24,573 nucleotides of DNA. Origin: a virus. A program made the position numbers and the translations under genes. Each line of letters opens with the position of its first letter. Position 1 is the first letter of the stretch. The stretch spans positions 1 to 24,573 of IMG/VR virus record IMGVR_UViG_3300045257_000490. One strand, written 5' to 3'. Below, one piece after another: positions 4,474-24,305 of this stretch. The notes under the pieces were generated by a model, which did not search any database, was not told the origin of the DNA, and was given only the letters and a program-made list of their open reading frames with translations.

Positions 4474-4543
4474 GGAGCCGGCGAGCGGGCATGGGCACGC
4501 ACAATGCTCATCCTGACGAGGCGCCCAGCGGCTCGCCGCTCCT
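4474..4543. repeat. 70-bp dispersed element, copy 1
   Basis: This 70-base block is about 90% identical (63 of 70) to 5661-5730, in the same orientation. Its ends are inverted repeats (GGAGCCGGCGAGC and GCTCGCCGCTCC) and it has a conserved centre CATCCTGACGAGGCGCCCAG. It could be a small non-autonomous element, a REP-type palindrome or a structured RNA. Apart from this block, the gap 4227-4600 holds the terminator just upstream and nothing else I can support. Confidence 0.7.
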
Positions 4544-4600
4544 CTCCATTCACTGTGGAACGGCGTTTCCCGTGCGGCCTCGCAACAGGTAGTCCGCTGC

Positions 4601-4765: not shown

Positions 4766-4902
4766 GAGAACTCTCCGGCCTGCCCCATCCGCCGTCCTTG
4801 GCTCACACCCTAACGAGAGATTACTGCGAGAGGTTTAAATCGCTCGCAAGAAATCCGTATCTTTGCGTTAATCTTTCCATTGGCTTGCAGCAATCGCGAG
4901 GG

Positions 4903-5034
4903 TCACGAGACTTCTTCCACGAGCAGGCGCTTGCGCTCGTGATCTTTCAGGCCAAATTCGGCCACGGCCGCGGTTTCCGCAGCCGCTTCCTCGGGCGCGG
5001 CAACCCGCCCCAGTCGTTCCAGTCGCTCGAGCCC
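4903..5034 (-). pseudogene. 5'-truncated duplicate of the 4032-4226 gene
   Basis: On the minus strand, 43 codons ending at TGA (4903-4905) encode a tail ending in KDHERKRLLVEEVS, matching the last 40 residues of the 4032-4226 product at 31 of 40 positions. There is no start codon or N-terminal half: upstream the frame runs into a terminator-like hairpin at 5069-5091. I read it as a truncated remnant of a local duplication. Confidence 0.75.
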
Positions 5035-5108: not shown

Positions 5109-5612
5109 GTGAAAAAATCCGAGTTGACGCAAGAACGGCTGCGTGAACTCTTACGCTACGACCCTAGGACGGGAAAATTTCGCTGGCGGGTGCGCAAGAG
5201 GTCGAACCACGATCCTGGGGACATCGCCGGCTGTCGCGTTCGATCGGACTTTTGGTGCATTCATATCGACGGTCGTCGCTACCAGGCGCACCAGCTGGCG
5301 TGGCTGTACATGAAAGGCGCGTGGGGCCGGCCCGTCATCGATCATCGTGACGGCAACTCTCTTAACAATCGATGGTGGAACCTGCGATTAACGACCCGTT
5401 CGAATAATGCTGCCAATCGGCGGCGCCTGCGCAGCAACACGTCGGGCTTCAAGGGCGTCGCGTTCAACCGGCAAAGAGGGAACTGGAAAGCGCAGATCAC
5501 AAAAGAGGGGCGACGGTATTATCTCGGCAGCTACGCGACCGCCGAGGAGGCGCATGTGGCCTACGTCGCCAAGGCGCGCGAGCTGTTCGGCGAATTTGCC
5601 CGAACGAAGTAG
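5109..5612 (+). CDS. HNH endonuclease with AP2 domain (homing-type)
   Basis: A 167-residue protein with a GTG start at 5109 (no good ribosome binding site seen, start uncertain). An HNH region spans about residues 58-95: AHQLAWLYM (H61), VIDHRDGNSLNN (D78, H79, N83, N86-N87) and WWNLRL (N91). An AP2/ERF-like DNA-binding region follows at about 110-160 (SGFKGVAFNR, NWKAQIT, YYLGSYATAEEAHVAYVAKA). This order, HNH then AP2, is well known in free-standing phage homing endonucleases, which cut DNA of related phages and spread their own gene. No intron is visible nearby. It sits between a hairpin terminator and the second copy of the 70-bp element. Confidence 0.92.
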   Translation: MKKSELTQERLRELLRYDPRTGKFRWRVRKRSNHDPGDIAGCRVRSDFWCIHIDGRRYQAHQLAWLYMKGAWGRPVIDHRDGNSLNNRWWNLRLTTRSNNAANRRRLRSNTSGFKGVAFNRQRGNWKAQITKEGRRYYLGSYATAEEAHVAYVAKARELFGEFARTK

Positions 5613-5660: not shown

Positions 5661-5730
5661 GGAGCCGGCGAGCGGGCAGGGACACGCACCAACATCATCC
5701 TGACGAGGCGCCCAGCAGCTCGCCGCTCCT
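5661..5730. repeat. 70-bp dispersed element, copy 2
   Basis: Same length, orientation and inverted ends as 4474-4543, differing at 7 positions, three of them clustered near the middle. It lies between the HNH gene and the next membrane-protein gene; the most upstream possible ATG of that gene (5735) is 4 bases beyond it. Confidence 0.7.
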
Positions 5731-5830
5731 CTGCATGCCTCAAGTCACGTCCCAGCGACACTTGATCTTGCCATACTATTGCGCCGAATCCCGACTAAAC
5801 TCCGAATCAGAGCGAGCGGGGTTCGAGCCG

Positions 5831-7340: not shown

Positions 7341-7547
7341 ATGTCGCTCCCGCCCGAATCCCTGCCGCCCTACTATATGCAGGGCAACGCCATCAACAAC
7401 CGCGTGACCCATAACGATCGCCCGTGGCTCGTGCTGGTCAACCAAGCCGATCCAAATTTCGCGCGCGATCAGCACCACGAGATCGAATACGAGTTCTCCG
7501 GCCGCCGGTTCTACGCCGATCGCAGCAAGCGCGGCGCCTATACCTGA
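7341..7547 (+). CDS. Small phage protein, hypothetical
   Basis: A 68-residue protein (starts MSLPPESLPPYYMQGNAINN) with GAGGA about 9 bases before ATG 7341. It is rich in aromatic and polar residues and lacks a signal or membrane segment. It begins the run of small + strand structural-type genes that leads to the portal. Its TGA stop (7545-7547) is the first three bases of a heptamer palindrome. Function not recognised. Confidence 0.7.
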   Translation: MSLPPESLPPYYMQGNAINNRVTHNDRPWLVLVNQADPNFARDQHHEIEYEFSGRRFYADRSKRGAYT

Positions 7548-7629
7548 TGTCAGATGTCAGATGTCAGATGTCGGATGTCAGATATCGAGAGCGATAGTCT
7601 GACCTCTGTCATCTGATCTCTGACATCTG
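7545..7629. repeat. Heptamer palindrome, GATGTCA type (A1)
   Basis: About five tandem GATGTCA units (with GGATGTC variants) form the left arm and degenerate TCTGACA-type units the right arm, separated by about 15 bases. The left arm supplies the stop codon of the upstream gene and the right arm ends about 10 bases before the ribosome binding site of the gene at 7648. Confidence 0.85.
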
Positions 7630-8529: not shown

Positions 8530-10932
8530 ATGCTCCGCACCACACCACCCGGCGAAGACCCGGTCGGCGAGGCTCGTGTCAGCCCGGTCGGCTTTTTCGA
8601 GCACGGCTCGCCGCCGGGCGAAGACGGCGTCAACGACCTCTACCAGCACGCCTCGGACCTCGCGCTGCCGCCCGGATCGGCCCCGGAGCGGGTGGGTCAC
8701 GACGCGCCCGACTACCTCCATCTCATCACCATCGCCGAGCAGCAGGCGAATCTCTACGTCCAGCAGGTCAACCGGCGCGCCTGGTCGCGCTCTTACCGCG
8801 CGTTCCACAACGAGCACTTCGCCGGAAGCAAATACGGTCACAAGGACTGGTCGAACCGCTCGAAAATCTTCCGCCCGAAGACGCGCTCGGCGGTGCGCAA
8901 GGACGGCGCCGCCGTCGCGGCCTCGCTGTTCGGCACGGTCGACGCCATCACCTGCTCGGCGGGCGACGAGGCCGATCCCACCCAGCGCGGCGCCGCCGCG
9001 CTGATGCAGGAGCTGATCAACTACCGCACCGACCGCACCTCCGGCCGCGCCGCGATTCCGTGGTTCCTGGTCGCCATGGGCGCCAGGCAAGACGCGTCGA
9101 TCGCCGGCATCTGCGCGTCGAAGCAATATTGGAAGCTCGAATTGCGCAAGTCCGAGGACGAGCTCGGTCCGGTCTACGTCCCCGACATCGACAGACCCGA
9201 CATCCGGCTCTTTCCGCCCGAGAACGTGATCATCGATCCGGCCGCCGACTGGACCAACCCGGCGCAGTCCGCCGCCTATCTGCTGCTCAAGTATCCGATG
9301 CGGCTCTACGAGGTGGAGAAGAAGACGCGCGACCCGCTCAACCCGTGGAAGGCGCTGCCGCCCGACCTGCTCAAGGGCAGCGCGGAGGCGAGCAAATTCG
9401 ACGCGGCGGCGATCAGGCGCGCGCGCGAGTTCGGCCTCGACCGGTTCGACGAGACGCAGAACTCCGCCGCGTTCGACATCATCTGGGTCTACGAGGCCTT
9501 CATCCGCATCGACGGCGAGGACAAGTGCTTCTTCGCGCTCGGCGACAAGGCGTTCCTCACCGACCCGAAGCCGACGCGCGAGGTTTACCCCGAGCAGGCG
9601 GGCGACCGCCCGGTCACGATCGGCTACGGCGCGCTCGAGGCGCATCGGATCTATCCCATGGCGCCGGTCGAGAGCTGGCAGCAGACCCAGCAGGAGATCA
9701 ACGACGTCGCCAACCTCTATCTCGACACGATGAAGCAGAACGTCGCGCCGGTCACCAAGGTGGTGCGCGGGAGGAGCGTCGATTTGGAGGCGCTGCACCG
9801 GCGCGGGCCCAACAGCCACATCCTGGTGACCCGGCTCGACGACATCGACTTCGCCAGGCCGGTCGACATCCCGCAGTCGGTGATCGTCGGCATGGAGAAG
9901 CTCGACGTCGACATGGACGACCTCGCCGGCCAGTTCAACGCCGGGTCGGTGCAGACCAACCGCACGCTCAACGACACGGTCGGCGGGCTCAAGCTCATCG
10001 CCGGCGCCTCGAACGCGGTGCAGGAGTTCGACATCCGCCTGTGGATCGAGACCTGGGCCGAGCCGGCGTTGGCGCAGGTGGTGCGGCTCGAGCAGTATTA
10101 CGAGAGCGATGAGATCGTCCTCGGCATCTGCGGGCAGCGCGCGCAGCTGTGGCAGAAGCACGGGGTTTCCCGCATCACCGACGAGCTGATGGACCGCGAG
10201 GTGACGATCCGCATCAACGCGGGGCTCGGCGTCGGCGATCCGCAGCAGCGGCTTGCCAAGTTCCGCGACGCCACCGCCGTGGCGGCGCCGCTGCTCGCGC
10301 AATCGCCCGATTTCCAGAGCGGGAAGATCAAGCTCAACATTTCCGAGATCATGAACGAGTGCTTCGGCGCGGTCGGCTATCGCGACGGCGGCAAGCGGTT
10401 CATCAGCGAGGCCCCGCCCGATCCGGGCCAGGCCCAGCAGGCGCAGATGCAACAGGGGCTCATGCTCCAGAACATCCTCGCCGAGATCGCCAAGAAGCGC
10501 GCCCAGGCCAAGCACGCCGAGGCGCAGGCCGGCCACGCGCAGATGCTCGGCACGGCAGCTATTGCAAAAGTCGGCCTCGAGCACCGGCGCGCGCTCACCG
10601 ACGAGCGCAACTCGGCCTTCGACCACGCCCACCAGGTGCACGACCGGTTGCTCGCCGCCCACGAGCAGGGCCATCGGCACGCGATGGAAGTAGCAGATGC
10701 CAGAGGTCAGATGTCAGATTTCAGAAGTGCAACGGGCGATCCGACCTCTGACATCCGACATCCGACATCCGATGACGCCGCAGGCGTCATCGCCCAGCTC
10801 ATCGCGGCGCTGCGCGCGCCGCGCCCGCCGGTCGAGTTCGTGCGCGACCCCGCGACCGGCCGCATCTCGGGCGCGCGTTATCTGCAACCGCAGTTGCCGC
10901 CGCCGGCCACGAATGCTGCGATTGGACTCTGA
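8530..10932 (+). CDS. Phage portal protein (head-tail connector)
   Basis: An 800-residue protein, long like the portals of podoviruses such as P22 or N4. The portal forms the ring at the capsid vertex through which the terminase pumps DNA. Features include an N-terminal region with YLHLITIAEQQANLYVQQVN and WSRSYRAFHNEHF, the segment IRLFPPENVIIDPAADWTNP in the middle, a helical stem region near 440-520, and a long helical C-terminus (QAQQAQMQQGLMLQNILAEI). The start at ATG 8530 follows palindrome E2. A heptamer palindrome is inserted in frame at residues about 722-749 (QMSDFR, DPTSDIRHPTSDD). The identification rests on length, position between terminase and scaffold, and portal-like segments; the exact family should be checked. 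Confidence 0.8.
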   Translation: MLRTTPPGEDPVGEARVSPVGFFEHGSPPGEDGVNDLYQHASDLALPPGSAPERVGHDAPDYLHLITIAEQQANLYVQQVNRRAWSRSYRAFHNEHFAGSKYGHKDWSNRSKIFRPKTRSAVRKDGAAVAASLFGTVDAITCSAGDEADPTQRGAAALMQELINYRTDRTSGRAAIPWFLVAMGARQDASIAGICASKQYWKLELRKSEDELGPVYVPDIDRPDIRLFPPENVIIDPAADWTNPAQSAAYLLLKYPMRLYEVEKKTRDPLNPWKALPPDLLKGSAEASKFDAAAIRRAREFGLDRFDETQNSAAFDIIWVYEAFIRIDGEDKCFFALGDKAFLTDPKPTREVYPEQAGDRPVTIGYGALEAHRIYPMAPVESWQQTQQEINDVANLYLDTMKQNVAPVTKVVRGRSVDLEALHRRGPNSHILVTRLDDIDFARPVDIPQSVIVGMEKLDVDMDDLAGQFNAGSVQTNRTLNDTVGGLKLIAGASNAVQEFDIRLWIETWAEPALAQVVRLEQYYESDEIVLGICGQRAQLWQKHGVSRITDELMDREVTIRINAGLGVGDPQQRLAKFRDATAVAAPLLAQSPDFQSGKIKLNISEIMNECFGAVGYRDGGKRFISEAPPDPGQAQQAQMQQGLMLQNILAEIAKKRAQAKHAEAQAGHAQMLGTAAIAKVGLEHRRALTDERNSAFDHAHQVHDRLLAAHEQGHRHAMEVADARGQMSDFRSATGDPTSDIRHPTSDDAAGVIAQLIAALRAPRPPVEFVRDPATGRISGARYLQPQLPPPATNAAIGL
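10694..10774. repeat. Heptamer palindrome inside the portal gene (A2)
   Basis: GATGTCA-type units on the left (CAGATGCCAGAGGTCAGATG) and GACATCC-type units on the right surround a 15-base centre. The element keeps the portal frame open through about 27 codons. Most right-arm units carry the stop-free CC variant. Confidence 0.85.
10771..10791. repeat. Perfect 9-bp hairpin in the portal gene
   Basis: GATGACGCC pairs exactly with GGCGTCATC around GCA. It abuts the right end of A2, repeating the theme of a small GC hairpin beside a heptamer palindrome. Confidence 0.7.
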
Positions 10933-12616: not shown

Positions 12617-12784
12617 GTGCGCCGATCGCTCGCACGTTTTCTCGCCGACACATCGTCGAGCGCGACCGTCGAGTACGCCCTGCTGGCCACGGGCGTCGCG
12701 CTGGCGATCGTGCTCGGGCTCATGCAGCTCGGCGTGCCCGGCCGCAGCGCCGCGCGGGCGTTGCTGAGATTCAGAAATCAGTGA
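12617..12784 (+). CDS. Degenerate Flp-like pilin
   Basis: A 55-residue product from GTG 12617, chosen because GGGGAGGGG lies directly upstream and because the protein then aligns with the Flp pilin at 4601-4765: leader MRRSLARFLADTSS, then SATVEYALLATGVALAIVLG. Glu19-Tyr20 fall at the same positions in both proteins. An ATG at 12581 would add 12 residues. The Gly before the prepilin cleavage site is replaced by Ser (S14), so processing by a TadV-like peptidase may fail. The tail is Arg-rich (GRSAARALLRFRNQ). Either a diverged pilin-like protein or a decaying gene. The TGA stop is directly followed by a heptamer palindrome. Confidence 0.7.
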   Translation: MRRSLARFLADTSSSATVEYALLATGVALAIVLGLMQLGVPGRSAARALLRFRNQ

Positions 12785-12896
12785 CCAGGTATCAGGTATC
12801 AGGTATCAGGTATCAGCTATCAGGTATCAGCTATCAGGTATCAGGTATCAAGAAATTCAGGTCTTTGATCCCTGATCCCTGATCACCGATGCCTGT
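12785..12896. repeat. Heptamer palindrome, GGTATCA type (C1)
   Basis: About nine GGTATCA units (some GCTATCA) form a long left arm; the right arm is TGATCCC-type units ending GATGCCTG. The left arm is about 70 bases, the right about 35, so the arms are unequal. Confidence 0.85.
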
Positions 12897-13269
12897 TTCG
12901 CGGACGTACCGTAATGCGCACGCCGCGGTAGGGCCAATACGGCCAGCCGGAAACCGGCGAATAGACGCGCGCGGCGCGCGGCGCGCATTCCCCGTTGGGC
13001 GCGCAGACCGGAAAGGCATAAAGCCCGGGGCGCTTCCAGCTGAGGTCGTAGGGGCCGTAGTCGTGGGTATAGTCGCAATAGGGCGCGCATTCGATCGCGG
13101 CCACGGGCGAGGCGGCGAAGATTGCGAACGCGAATAGCGAGTAGCGAATAGCGAATAGGGAACGGCGAGTCTTACTATTCGCTATTCGCCATTCGCTATT
13201 CGCCCTTTCGGCTATTCGCCATTCGCTATTCGCCCTTTCGGCTATTCGCCATTCGCTCTTCGCGCTCAC
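12883..13269 (-). CDS. Cys-rich exported protein with a repeat-encoded N-terminus
   Basis: A 128-residue protein. The only usable start is GTG 13269, which overlaps the TGA of the GlcG-like gene (GTGA), so it is probably translated by coupling. Residues 5-32 are SEWRIAERAN repeats, read from one arm of a heptamer palindrome. The hydrophobic signal peptide (RRSLFAIRYSLFAFAIFAA, about 35-53) is largely read from the other arm. The mature domain (IECAPYCDYTHDYGPYDLSW, then PVCAPNGEC) is Cys- and Tyr-rich and resembles small exported proteins of Bradyrhizobium-type bacteria, from memory. The 3' end overlaps palindrome C1. The mature domain is probably genuine and the N-terminus secondarily acquired. 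Confidence 0.65.
   Translation of the reverse strand: MSAKSEWRIAERANSEWRIAERANSEWRIANSKTRRSLFAIRYSLFAFAIFAASPVAAIECAPYCDYTHDYGPYDLSWKRPGLYAFPVCAPNGECAPRAARVYSPVSGWPYWPYRGVRITVRPRNRHR
13124..13262. repeat. Heptamer palindrome, GAATAGC/GAATGGC type (D1)
   Basis: The left arm (GCGAATAGCGAGTAGCGAAT) and right arm (CTATTCGCCATTCG units) are inverted. The right arm contains an exact 30-base tandem duplication (13181-13210 and 13211-13240), plus a 17-base partial third copy. The element is wholly inside the minus-strand gene 12883-13269. Confidence 0.88.
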
Positions 13270-13736
13270 TGCAGCTTCGCCTTCTCGATGCCGGCCATCA
13301 CGCATTCGGTGTCGACGCCGGGCGATCCGGAAAGGCCGACCCCGGCGACCACCTCGTTGCCGGCCTTGATCGGCACGCCGCCGTCGATGGCGATGACGTT
13401 GGGCAGCGTGGTCTGCTCGCGCCGGACCGGCTCGGTCGCCATGCGCTTGATGAAGTCGGCGGTGGTCATCTTGAAGGTCATGGCCGTGTAGGCCTTGCGG
13501 CGCGCGTTCTCGGTCGTGTGCGGGCTCGCGCCGTCGGCGCGCAGCGACACCACGGTGAGCCCGCCGCGGTCCACCACCACGACGGAGACCGCGTAGCCGC
13601 GCGCCTTGCACGCCTCGAGCGCGTTCTCCGCCACCGCCTTGGCGACGGCGTAGGACAACTCCTTGCGCTCGATGAACTGCGCGCGCGCCGGCACCGCCGC
13701 GACGCAGGCGAGCGCGAGGATGGCGACCAGGCGCAT
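13266..13736 (-). CDS. Exported GlcG/HbpS-family protein
   Basis: A 156-residue protein from ATG 13736, with GGAGG 7 bases upstream; the longer frame to 13823 is repeat-derived and rejected. A signal peptide (MRLVAILALACVAAVPARA, cleavage near residue 19) is followed by a GlcG/HbpS-type domain. Hallmarks are the early helix LSYAVAKAVAENALEACKAR, the strand VSVVVVDRGGLTVVSLRADGA, RRKAYTAMTF, and the C-terminal part GGVPIKAGNEVVAGVGLSGS. Proteins of this family bind small ligands such as haem or cobalamin, or occur in glycolate-like operons; the specific ligand here is unknown. It is a host gene coupled to the next minus-strand gene by a GTGA overlap. Confidence 0.88.
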   Translation of the reverse strand: MRLVAILALACVAAVPARAQFIERKELSYAVAKAVAENALEACKARGYAVSVVVVDRGGLTVVSLRADGASPHTTENARRKAYTAMTFKMTTADFIKRMATEPVRREQTTLPNVIAIDGGVPIKAGNEVVAGVGLSGSPGVDTECVMAGIEKAKLQ

Positions 13737-13761: not shown

Positions 13762-13867
13762 GCAGGTATCAGGTATCGGGCATCAGGTACCGGGATCAGG
13801 CCCCGAGGATGCGTCTGCTCCATCCCGATGCCTGATCCCTGATTGCTGAATCCTGATGCCTGTCAGG
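13762..13867. repeat. Heptamer palindrome, GGTATCA type (C2)
   Basis: The left arm is GGTATCAGGTATCGGGCATC; the right arm is CCTGATCCCTGATTGCTG and neighbours. It lies upstream of the GlcG-like gene, whose ribosome binding site begins about 10 bases away. Confidence 0.8.
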
Positions 13868-13875
13868 ACGGGCTG

Positions 13876-14013
13876 ATGGCGATCGCCCGGGCGGCGGCTT
13901 GGTACCAGCTCATCGATTTGAAGAAGCTCGTCCGCCGGGCGGGCTTGCGCTTCCTGCTGGTGGTTTTTCGGGTCGGGATGCTGCGTTTCCTCGTGCGCTT
14001 GCTCGACATCTAA
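13876..14013 (+). CDS. Possible small hydrophobic protein
   Basis: A 45-codon frame (MAIARAAAWYQLIDLKKLVR start) with an amphipathic, Arg/Leu-rich helix (LRFLLVVFRVGMLRFLVRLL). AGGACGGG precedes the ATG. A competing frame at 13899-14081 looks less protein-like. Short length and lack of homology knowledge keep confidence low. Confidence 0.3.
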   Translation: MAIARAAAWYQLIDLKKLVRRAGLRFLLVVFRVGMLRFLVRLLDI

Positions 14014-14210: not shown

Positions 14211-14309
14211 GGGAATCAGGGAATCAGGCATCAGGCATCAGCGGCGCCTTGATTCCTCGATCTCCGATCCCCCGTCCCTGATCCCCGATCCCTGATCCCC
14301 GATCCCTGG
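14211..14309. repeat. Heptamer palindrome, GGCATCA/GATCCCT type (C3)
   Basis: The left arm GGGAATCAGGCATCAGGCAT is opposed by many CCTGATCCCCGAT units. The last right-arm unit (GATCCCTGG) runs into the GGAG ribosome binding site of the gene at 14318. Confidence 0.85.
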
Positions 14310-14317
14310 AGAAACCC

Positions 14318-14776
14318 ATGGCCAAATACGCAATCACCGGGACGCAATCGACCGTCTCGGGCTCCTACAAGACCGCCCTCGACGTGTTCGCCACCACCGC
14401 GGCGGTGCGGCGCGGCAAGGTCTACGACGTGCTGATCGGCACCAACGGCACGCCGGCGGACAACTACCTGCAATGGGACATTTCCCGCATGACCGCCGAC
14501 GGCACCGGCACCGCGGTCACCCCGAACACGCTCGATCCGGCCGACGTTGCCGCGCTCGCCACGGCCAAGAACAACTACACCGCCGAGCCGACCGTCACCG
14601 CCAACTCCTCGCTGCTCAACGTCGGGGTCAACCAGCGTGCCTCCTACCGCTGGGTCGCCGCGCCGGGATCGGAGCTGGTGTTCCCGGCCACCGCCAACAA
14701 CGGCCTCGTGCTGCGCGCGCTCTCCGGCGGCTACACCGGCTCGGCCACCGGCGACTTCATGTACGAGGAACAGTGA
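14318..14776 (+). CDS. Phage virion-type protein, hypothetical
   Basis: A 152-residue protein; GGAG lies 8 bases before ATG 14318. It is rich in Thr, Ala, Gly and Asn with beta-strand character (MAKYAITGTQSTVSGSYKTA, SELVFPATANNGLVLRALSG), typical of capsid decoration or tail accessory proteins. No signal peptide or membrane segment. Its size and composition resemble the protein at 22489-22947, but I see no clear sequence match between them. The TGA is followed at once by palindrome A3. Structural role inferred from composition and context. Confidence 0.75.
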   Translation: MAKYAITGTQSTVSGSYKTALDVFATTAAVRRGKVYDVLIGTNGTPADNYLQWDISRMTADGTGTAVTPNTLDPADVAALATAKNNYTAEPTVTANSSLLNVGVNQRASYRWVAAPGSELVFPATANNGLVLRALSGGYTGSATGDFMYEEQ

Positions 14777-14778
14777 TC

Positions 14779-14863
14779 GGAGGTCAGATGTCGGATGTCA
14801 GAGGTCAGATGCCGCTTGTCTCTTCTGTCATTTGACATCTGTCATCCGTCATCTGTCATCTGA
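14779..14863. repeat. Heptamer palindrome, GATGTCA type (A3)
   Basis: The left arm GAGGTCAGATGTCGGATGTC is paired with the right arm GACATCTGTCATCCGTCATC and following units. It fills the whole junction between the stop codons of two convergent genes. Confidence 0.85.
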
Positions 14864-18412: not shown

Positions 18413-19468
18413 ATGCCCACCGGCATCACCGGCCTCGCCCAAACTGCCGTCGCCGCGCTCGCTACTACGAGCGAACCGGCGCTGGAATCGAAGTTTCACC
18501 AGCCGTGGTCGGAGCCGGTGAGGCAAAAGATCGCGCCGCAGCTCGCGGTCGCGCTGATCGCCTCGGGCCTCGCCTCCGTCGCGGCGGCGCCGTTTGCCGA
18601 AACGGTCACGCAGGACCGCTGGCATCAGCCATGGTCGGAGCCGGTGCGCACGCGCTGGTTTCCGCCCGCCGAGCAGCAGGCGGTGGCGCCCGATCCCGCA
18701 ACGCGGGTCTCGTTCTCCTGGTGGGCGTGGCTTTCCGAGCCGGTCGTCAAGGCGCGGCCGCGGCTTCGCGAGGCGCACCAGCAATGGCTCGCCTTTGCGC
18801 CGCCGTTCTCCGCCGGCGCGGTGCAGTCGGAATGGTCCGGTCCGCCGCCGAGCCTCGTGCGCTTCCAGTATCAGGTGCACACGCGCCCGCCGTGGCCGGA
18901 CATCAACGCATCCTGGCTGCCGCCGCTCTCGGAGCCGGTGCGGATCCGCCCGGGGCTGCTCGCGGCGCTGCAGCCCTACGAGGTTTCCTACGACGTTCTG
19001 CCGCTGCCGTTCCTCGGTGGCGGTGGCGGCTGGTATCTGCCCGATCCGACCCGACCGCCGTCTTCTGGCGAAGCGTCGCGGACTACGCTCGACGACGCTT
19101 CGCTGGCAATCCGCAAACCTCGGAAGCCCGGCGCGCCGCGCCAGGTCGCGCCGAAAATCGAGCCGCCGAGCTTCGCCGAGGTCATCGGCAATCAGCAGCC
19201 GATGCGGCTTGCCGATGTGCTGGGCTCGGCATTCGCGCCGCGGCTCGATGCACAACAACCGCCGGCGCTCGATCTTTATGTCCCGCCCGCCTCCGCCGTT
19301 CCGGCTACGGCGCGGCAAGCCCCGCTGCCGCGCGCGGTGATCGATGCCGCGGCGGACCACGTCGACGCGATGGACGCCATGGAAGCGATGCACGCGCTCG
19401 ATGAGCTGGAACGGCAGGAGCATGAGGCCTTGATCGCGATCCTGCTGCATCTGGCGAGTGGTGAGTAG
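18413..19468 (+). CDS. Phage structural protein with WSEPVR repeats
   Basis: A 351-residue protein from ATG 18413, with GGGGATT about 7 bases upstream. It contains at least four copies of a W-x-x-(P/W)-x-S-E-P-V-(R/V) motif at about residues 28-37 (FHQPWSEPVR), 70-79 (WHQPWSEPVR), 103-112 (WWAWLSEPVV) and 168-177 (WLPPLSEPVRIRPGL), spaced by 35-65 residues. I recall similar short repeats in phage virion proteins of alphaproteobacteria. The C-terminus is an acidic helix (HALDELERQEHEALIAILLH). The last residues (ASGE) and the TAG stop come from palindrome B1, so the native C-terminus may have been cut or extended. Role in the virion unknown. Confidence 0.8.
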   Translation: MPTGITGLAQTAVAALATTSEPALESKFHQPWSEPVRQKIAPQLAVALIASGLASVAAAPFAETVTQDRWHQPWSEPVRTRWFPPAEQQAVAPDPATRVSFSWWAWLSEPVVKARPRLREAHQQWLAFAPPFSAGAVQSEWSGPPPSLVRFQYQVHTRPPWPDINASWLPPLSEPVRIRPGLLAALQPYEVSYDVLPLPFLGGGGGWYLPDPTRPPSSGEASRTTLDDASLAIRKPRKPGAPRQVAPKIEPPSFAEVIGNQQPMRLADVLGSAFAPRLDAQQPPALDLYVPPASAVPATARQAPLPRAVIDAAADHVDAMDAMEAMHALDELERQEHEALIAILLHLASGE

Positions 19469-19527
19469 TGAGTGGTGAGTAGAAAAATGATCTTCACCAT
19501 TCGCCATTCACCACTCACTACTCGCCG
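19454..19527. repeat. Heptamer palindrome, GAGTGGT/GAGTAGT type (B1)
   Basis: The left arm GTGGTGAGTAGTGAGTGGTG faces the right arm CACCACTCACTACTCGCC, with a centre of about 25 bases. It supplies the stop codon (TAG, 19466-19468) of the upstream gene. The right arm ends 9 bases before ATG 19537, leaving no Shine-Dalgarno. Confidence 0.9.
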
Positions 19528-19536
19528 CCTCAACAA

Positions 19537-22375: not shown

Positions 22376-22392
22376 CGCGCGCGAAGCGCGCG
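22376..22392. repeat. GC hairpin after the capsid stop
   Basis: CGCGCGC and GCGCGCG pair around GAA, 3 bases after the stop codon and directly before palindrome B3, the same layout as after the scaffold gene. Confidence 0.7.
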
Positions 22393-22393
22393 C

Positions 22394-22466
22394 GTGAGTA
22401 GTGAATGGCGAATAGCGAATAGACCAATCGCTCCACTTCACCACTCACCACTCACTACTCACCATT
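22394..22466. repeat. Heptamer palindrome, mixed GAGTAGT/GAATAGC type (B3)
   Basis: The left arm GTGAGTAGTGAATGGCGAAT contains both B-type and D-type units, showing that these two types intergrade. The right arm is CACCACTCACCACTCACTAC and following bases. It ends about 22 bases before ATG 22489. Confidence 0.88.
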
Positions 22467-22488
22467 CCTCAACGAAGGAATCCAACCA

Positions 22489-23837: not shown

Positions 23838-24305
23838 ATGCCCGAACCGCATCTGCTGCGCCTCGACCGCGCGCGCTACCATTCGAGCGTGCACGGCGAG
23901 TTCCAGAGCGCGACGCACTATTGGCAGGACGGCTTGCCGTTCGATGCGCTGGGCCATCTCGTCATGGGCGAGTGCTCGCCCGAGCAGCTCGCCAAGGCGG
24001 AGGCCAAGGCACCGCGGCGCCAGATGTCAGATGCCGGATGTCAGAGGTCGGAAGCGAGCGATCCGTCATCTGACATCTGTCATCCGACATCCGAGGTGAA
24101 TCTCGAACTCTGGGCCAAGGGCGAGGCGCGCTATCTGCCCGGCAAGGTCTTCGCCGCGATCCGCGAGCGCTACAACAAGTCGGTCACCACCTTCGCCGAC
24201 GCCATCGAGTTCCTGGTCAATGACGTGAAGCTCGTCGCACGGGAGCAGGCCTCGACCAAGCTGCTCTCCATGGGCCGCGTGAAGGCGGGGCCGGAGGAGG
24301 CTTGA
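23838..24305 (+). CDS. Phage-associated hypothetical protein with in-frame repeat
   Basis: A 155-residue protein from ATG 23838, preceded by AAGGGA; the longer frame from 23763 is palindrome-derived. The N-terminal domain (LLRLDRARYHSSVHGEFQSA, THYWQDGLPFDALGHLV) and C-terminal helical domain (IRERYNKSVTTFADAIEFLV) are separated by about 25 residues (62-86) read from a heptamer palindrome. The flanking domains look like ordinary compact protein, so the repeat seems to be tolerated as a linker. Function not recognised; last gene of the structural run in the window. Confidence 0.75.
   Translation: MPEPHLLRLDRARYHSSVHGEFQSATHYWQDGLPFDALGHLVMGECSPEQLAKAEAKAPRRQMSDAGCQRSEASDPSSDICHPTSEVNLELWAKGEARYLPGKVFAAIRERYNKSVTTFADAIEFLVNDVKLVAREQASTKLLSMGRVKAGPEEA
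24021..24094. repeat. Heptamer palindrome inside the 23838 gene (A5)
   Basis: The left arm CAGATGTCAGATGCCGGATG and right arm CATCTGACATCTGTCATCCG and following units are inverted around a centre of about 15 bases; frame is kept. Confidence 0.88.

Follow-up and report, generated by a model that had tools for sequence, protein, structure and literature searches.

A heptad palindrome as the probable front of an export signal in a viral cargo gene

The DNA considered here (the window) is the 24,573-base virus record IMGVR_UViG_3300045257_000490, which carries phage terminase, portal and head genes and is read by us as a bacterial prophage. Between its portal gene (8530-10932) and the gene of a conserved 152-amino-acid protein (14318-14776) lies a cargo that includes minus-strand genes for a small basic protein, an HbpS-like/GlcG protein and a small cysteine-rich (Cys-rich) protein. 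The 5' end of the last gene is occupied by a palindrome of tandem heptads, and we discuss here how this repeat probably came to form the front of the export signal of the predicted exported protein. The features concerned are as follows.

12883-13269, minus strand: small Cys-rich protein gene, 128 amino acids, GTG start, repeat-coded presequence (from translation of the open reading frame (ORF), orthologues and the ratio of nonsynonymous to synonymous substitution rates, dN/dS)
13175-13263, minus strand: first (5') arm of the palindrome, GCGAATAGCGAATGG type, 2.8 tandem copies of a 30-nt unit, coding SEWRIAERAN twice and SEWRIAN
13130-13170, minus strand: second (3') arm, CTATTCGCTATTCGCTACTCGCTATTCGC, plus part of the loop, a heptad array coding ...SLFAIRYSLFA
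13096-13128, minus strand: unique signal remnant FAIFAASPVAA, predicted cleavage after VAA; ATCTTCGCCGCC is common to the window and the orthologue L003
12886-13095, minus strand: mature Cys-rich domain IECAPYC...NGEC..., four Cys invariant among five orthologues
13266-13736, minus strand: HbpS-like/GlcG gene with an ordinary signal, MRLVAILALACVAAVPARA (PF03928, E 1.7e-29)
13266-13269, minus strand: GTGA stop/start overlap (GlcG-like TGA 13266-13268, Cys-rich GTG 13267-13269), conserved in L003 and L005
13280-13286, minus strand: GAGAAGG, resembling a Shine-Dalgarno (SD) site, within the 3' end of GlcG, about 10 nt upstream of the GTG

The repeat and the presequence

The ORF begins VSAKSEWRIAERANSEWRIAERANSEWRIANSKTRRSLFAIRYSLFAFAIFAASPVAAIECAPYC, and its full presequence reads VSAKSEWRIAERANSEWRIAERANSEWRIANSKTRRSLFAIRYSLFAFAIFAASPVAA before the mature part IECAPYC, the cleavage point between them being a guess. 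When the codons are mapped onto the arrays, residues ~4-47 of the ~58 are repeat-coded and residues 48-58 (FAIFAASPVAA) come from unique DNA. The palindrome consists of CTATTCG/GCGAATA heptads with inverted arms at 13130-13158 and 13175-13203 (29 nt, 93% complementary), and the 30-nt tandem array extends over 13181-13263 with 98% matches; since its unit is a multiple of three, expansion preserves the reading frame. The repeat structure is far above the chance level, and the RNA fold of the element reaches -70.1 kcal/mol (z -6.7). As 7 has no factor in common with 3, an array of CTATTCG gives the same stop-free cycle, FAIRYSL, in all three frames, a property that eases recruitment as a presequence; the opposite strand has one TAG per cycle, except where the heptad is GAATGGC.

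Five orthologues were compared, namely the window, L003 (which stands also for L004, with 2 differences), L005 (also for L006, with 1 difference), L153 and L154. A pure FAIRYSL array never runs for more than 6 residues before a charged or strongly polar one occurs, which makes a poor core, so that fusion with downstream hydrophobic residues is needed. As Arg42 breaks up the hydrophobic core of the window presequence and FAIFAASPVAA is unique sequence, the likely hydrophobic (h-) region is a hybrid, YSLFAFAIFAA. By a crude test the presequence has the features of a Sec signal, with an N-terminal (n-) region of net charge +5, this core and V-A-A before Ile59. The unique remnant alone offers 7 residues free of charged or strongly polar ones in the window and 5 in L005, compared with 12 and 10 when the repeat is included; the remnants are thus too short for an h-region, and the core in both depends on the repeat. 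With the repeat the maximum 8-residue hydropathy is 2.76 (window) and 2.56 (L005), both inside the range of five known E. coli signals taken as controls (2.25-3.02). A twin-arginine translocation (Tat) signal was considered and rejected, as TRRSLF occurs in the window and is absent from the other four orthologues.

The earlier note on this DNA had described an ORF whose GTG overlaps the GlcG-like TGA and which reads its SEWRIAERAN repeats from the left arm, with translation coupled to the GlcG-like gene and no other start codon that has a signal. The overlap, the repeats and the lack of another such start are borne out, the sole later in-frame start being the GTG of Val56, three residues before the mature part. 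The coupling is supported by the GTGA overlap in the window, L003 and L005 and by an SD-like AAGGA that precedes the GTG by 9 nt in L003 and L005. The note had further derived the whole hydrophobic core from the CTATTCG arm, which is correct for SLFAIRYSLFA, up to A47, and not for FAIFAASPVAA.

Orthologues and the history of the signal

The mature domain is 87-88% identical to the window in L003 and L005, 66% in L153 and 63% in L154. The presequences of L003 (VIERKGANSEWRIANRKSWVSLFATHYSLFAISIAAAIAGIFAAQPAAAVDC) and L005 (VSDVARMSAAKCGDPGYRAARSSGLRTIRYSLFAILFASPALAIEC) are both repeat-coded, the latter with a GTAGCCC-type palindrome in place of the left arm. Of the three frames through the element, the window and L003 each have just one open, the one in phase with the mature part. 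L003 and L005 share CTATTCGCTACTCACTATTCGC, to which the window is identical at 21/22, and the arm is therefore probably orthologous. L153 reads MITQAITGHWSIPKLFTATVFGLMLAGATPAAAVEC and L154 MIRLTITGHWPISKLLTATLFGLVLAGAAPAAAVEC; neither has a GlcG gene there, and both carry a unique and unrelated hydrophobic core, KLFTATVFGLMLAGATPAAA. Their GTG lies inside a different heptad palindrome of CAGTGATC type (4895-4928, arms 4895-4907 and 4916-4928), which contains GGTGACCAGTG, that is an SD-like site and the GTG start at a fitting spacing, with GGTGA three bases ahead of the GTG. The duplex with the anti-SD there reaches -11.5 kcal/mol; for random 20-mers the 5% level is -10.0.

Judging from these sequences, the unique core of L153 and L154 is probably the ancestral form, L003 may be an intermediate in which a full unique core still stands behind the repeat, and an existing signal was probably displaced by the repeat, with the window and L005 as the clearest cases; the direction of change is read from an unrooted comparison of five sequences. 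The earlier note had left it between replacement and creation. Replacement is supported by the unrelated core of the distant orthologues, the repeat in the near relatives and the purifying selection described below. Creation is not supported, as a signal seems to be older than the repeat. The note had also expected orthologues with an independent signal and start to speak against its proposal; L153 and L154 are such orthologues, and they argue for replacement and not against it.

The GlcG gene of the window scores 102.8 bits against PF03928, above the curated cut-off of 25. In L003 GlcG is internally deleted and most of the gene is gone, with the last codons and their AAGGA retained, as would be expected if those codons serve the downstream start. 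The L005 GlcG gene (L005:4336-4872) is without the MRLVAILALACVAAVPARA of the window and reads MANSEGRIASGTTLASLFATRYSLFALLFAAGAAASPASA followed by QFIERKEL, its ATG being supplied by the left arm. Since L003 GlcG still has the beginning of the ordinary signal (MRSIVMMALAC...), the repeat-coded GlcG signal of L005 is probably derived. It appears to be a second, weaker case of a repeat-coded signal, and its translation is doubtful: the ATG has no SD ahead of it (duplex -2.5) and is itself part of the stem of a hairpin of -68 kcal/mol. The dN/dS of GlcG between the window and L005 is 0.12, a value that cannot date any loss.

Weighing the readings

We give a probability of roughly 0.7 to the reading that the heptad palindrome at the 5' end of the cargo gene became the front of the export signal of the Cys-rich protein. 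The ribosome would begin at the GTG that shares bases with the stop codon of GlcG, by way of the SD-like site in the end of that gene, and would pass through both repeat arms, the first arm and the loop giving a long, positively charged n-region. YSLFA, the last residues of the second arm, would then be joined to the old-signal remnant FAIFAASPVAA to make a Sec-type core and cleavage site, so that the repeat would have supplanted an older signal in its n-region and front part. As the arm reads FAIRYSL without stops in every frame, any junction frame could be captured. The mature domain has a dN/dS of 0.090 between the window and L003, 0.099 between the window and L005 and 0.063 between L003 and L005 (dS 0.48-0.59); it is under purifying selection, which makes translation and use of the gene probable. 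The shared arm suggests that the repeat was already in the ancestor of these three, and if so, most of this selection acted after its arrival.

Several observations weigh against this reading. With 42 residues in the window, the n-region is of unusual length, the 5' end of the gene is held in a very stable hairpin (-70 kcal/mol), and the distinct repeat-bearing orthologues are just three, all of them viral metagenome contigs. Pairwise dN/dS would also fit a single lineage that lost the function very recently. Finally, open frames are not rare in such repeats: 32% of frames are open through the whole of elements outside this locus, and among 205 distinct elements a start codon is followed by an open frame up to the end of the right arm in 256 of 615 frames (42%), which makes in-frame fusion cheap. 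The cheap frames, the strong hairpin and the internal deletion of the neighbouring GlcG in L003 would all suit an insertion that broke the gene in its signal-coding region, leaving an accidental ORF and a protein no longer exported or made. We consider this unlikely, because the three repeat-bearing lineages show purifying selection on the mature domain and have all retained the start codon, the SD-like site, the open frame and an adequately long hydrophobic core followed by a cleavage-like site. The least probable explanation is that the repeat is merely 5' untranslated or intergenic and that ribosomes initiate past it, at a non-standard codon or the GTG of Val56, with a shorter signal or none; the unusual length of the presequence, genes elsewhere that have a start and signal of their own right behind a repeat (for example in L062) and the proposal that translation may often begin downstream of the predicted start where repetitive extragenic palindromes (REPs) lie at ORF N-termini (PMC3733652) would favor it, but no ATG, GTG or TTG past the repeat leaves a signal in the window, L003 or L005, the GTG of Val56 is not conserved, and the unique remnants of the window and L005 are too short to serve as h-regions.

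Beyond the fusion at this locus, heptad palindromes could be portable, frame-independent modules of start and signal from which exported proteins gain new N-termini time and again, and should then be frequent in host chromosomes. This we regard as doubtful; it draws on the CTATTCG, CAGTGATC and GTAGCCC palindromes, which give the start and/or presequence in five orthologues, and on GlcG of L005. A general claim that the repeat makes signals everywhere was rejected by a census of ~330 distinct right arms at 148 viral loci, in which signal-like fusions to intact genes were found at this locus only; the other high-scoring frames, judged by eye, resemble antisense or non-coding reads.

Surroundings, known systems and meaning

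Two further features belong to the cargo.

13866-14009, minus strand: gene of a small basic protein, conserved and lying upstream of GlcG, found in relatives carrying this cargo
13763-13855, no strand assigned: further heptad palindrome, CAGGTATCAGGTATC type, directly upstream of the GlcG-like gene

In L155, a related contig, the 152-amino-acid protein gene directly follows the portal gene (region before 5001) with no cargo at the site, so that the cargo either is an insertion or was lost from L155. The mature Cys-rich domain matched no known family, and its AlphaFold model (mean predicted local distance difference test score, pLDDT, 51) was not used. A scan of genome contigs with this domain gave a sole match, short and in Bacteroidetes, which was taken as spurious, and plasmid and phage collections held no homologue. 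Weak matches to the repeat occur in Allorhizobium/Pararhizobium plasmids, in intergenic positions; the host we presume, from the kind of repeat, to belong to Hyphomicrobiales.

Other heptad palindrome families (GATGTCA, CAGGTAT, TCCCTGA and CACTCAC types) are dispersed over the same 24 kb, at 7546-7629, 10694-10776, 12786-12850, 14254-14308, 14777-14862, 19456-19528, 22386-22467 and 24019-24094. Heptad repeats at 14216-14308, between the small gene and the 152-amino-acid protein gene, have by eye no counterpart at that place in L003, L153 and L154, and are a possible insertion polymorphism. Adjoining the cargo, 12617-12781 (plus strand) encodes a weakly Flp/Fap pilin-like protein (24.3 bits, below the Pfam cut-off of 32.2), and L003 has a similar one. 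At 5109-5612 (plus strand) a homing-endonuclease-like protein with HNH_3 and AP2 domains is flanked by a 76-nt direct repeat, 89% identical (4474-4549 and 5661-5736).

A signal peptide partly formed by a repeat has been described for Yersinia YPO1552, where the RU-2/YPAL miniature inverted-repeat transposable element (MITE) contributes and homologues of other genera have unrelated signals (Delihas 2007; PMC2759123, PMC2229807). The window gene likewise reads a repeat in frame at its N-terminus, and its homologues without this repeat (L153, L154) carry an unrelated signal. Unlike that 168-bp MITE, the window element is a tandem heptad palindrome whose arm codes one peptide in all frames, and here one also sees the mature domain under selection, what may be an intermediate, and a second, weaker case in the neighbouring gene. 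Rickettsia palindromic elements (RPEs) also lie in frame within functional protein genes (Ogata 2000, reviewed in PMC2229807); they are without heptad arrays, and that review does not describe them as replacing a signal peptide. REPs within ORFs or at their N-termini are reported for the GTAG-tagged class (PMC3733652), and the L005 presequence includes a CGTAGCCCGCATGAGCGC palindrome that is REP-like in look. GTAG-tagged REPs measure 20-40 bp, whereas the window element has 7-base periodic arms. Short tandemly repeated repetitive sequences (STRRs) of Nostoc are heptameric repeats. Those and the heptameric repeats of Xanthomonas and Nostoc (PMC4692102) are alike in their 7-nt unit and dispersal, and the window repeat differs by its long inverted arms. 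The heptad repeat sequence string was not found in the literature searched. Repeat-derived signals as such are of a known kind; as far as that literature goes, both this element and the evidence that it replaced a signal are new.

Signal peptides tolerate many sequences, and natural cases in which relatives reveal the swap itself, from an older signal through a possible intermediate to its replacement, are to our knowledge few. With the same stop-free peptide in every frame, a heptad repeat is an easily captured N-terminus, which provides a testable route to new exported proteins and to repeats kept inside genes, and the case described here would show how junk-like repeats can turn into targeting sequences.
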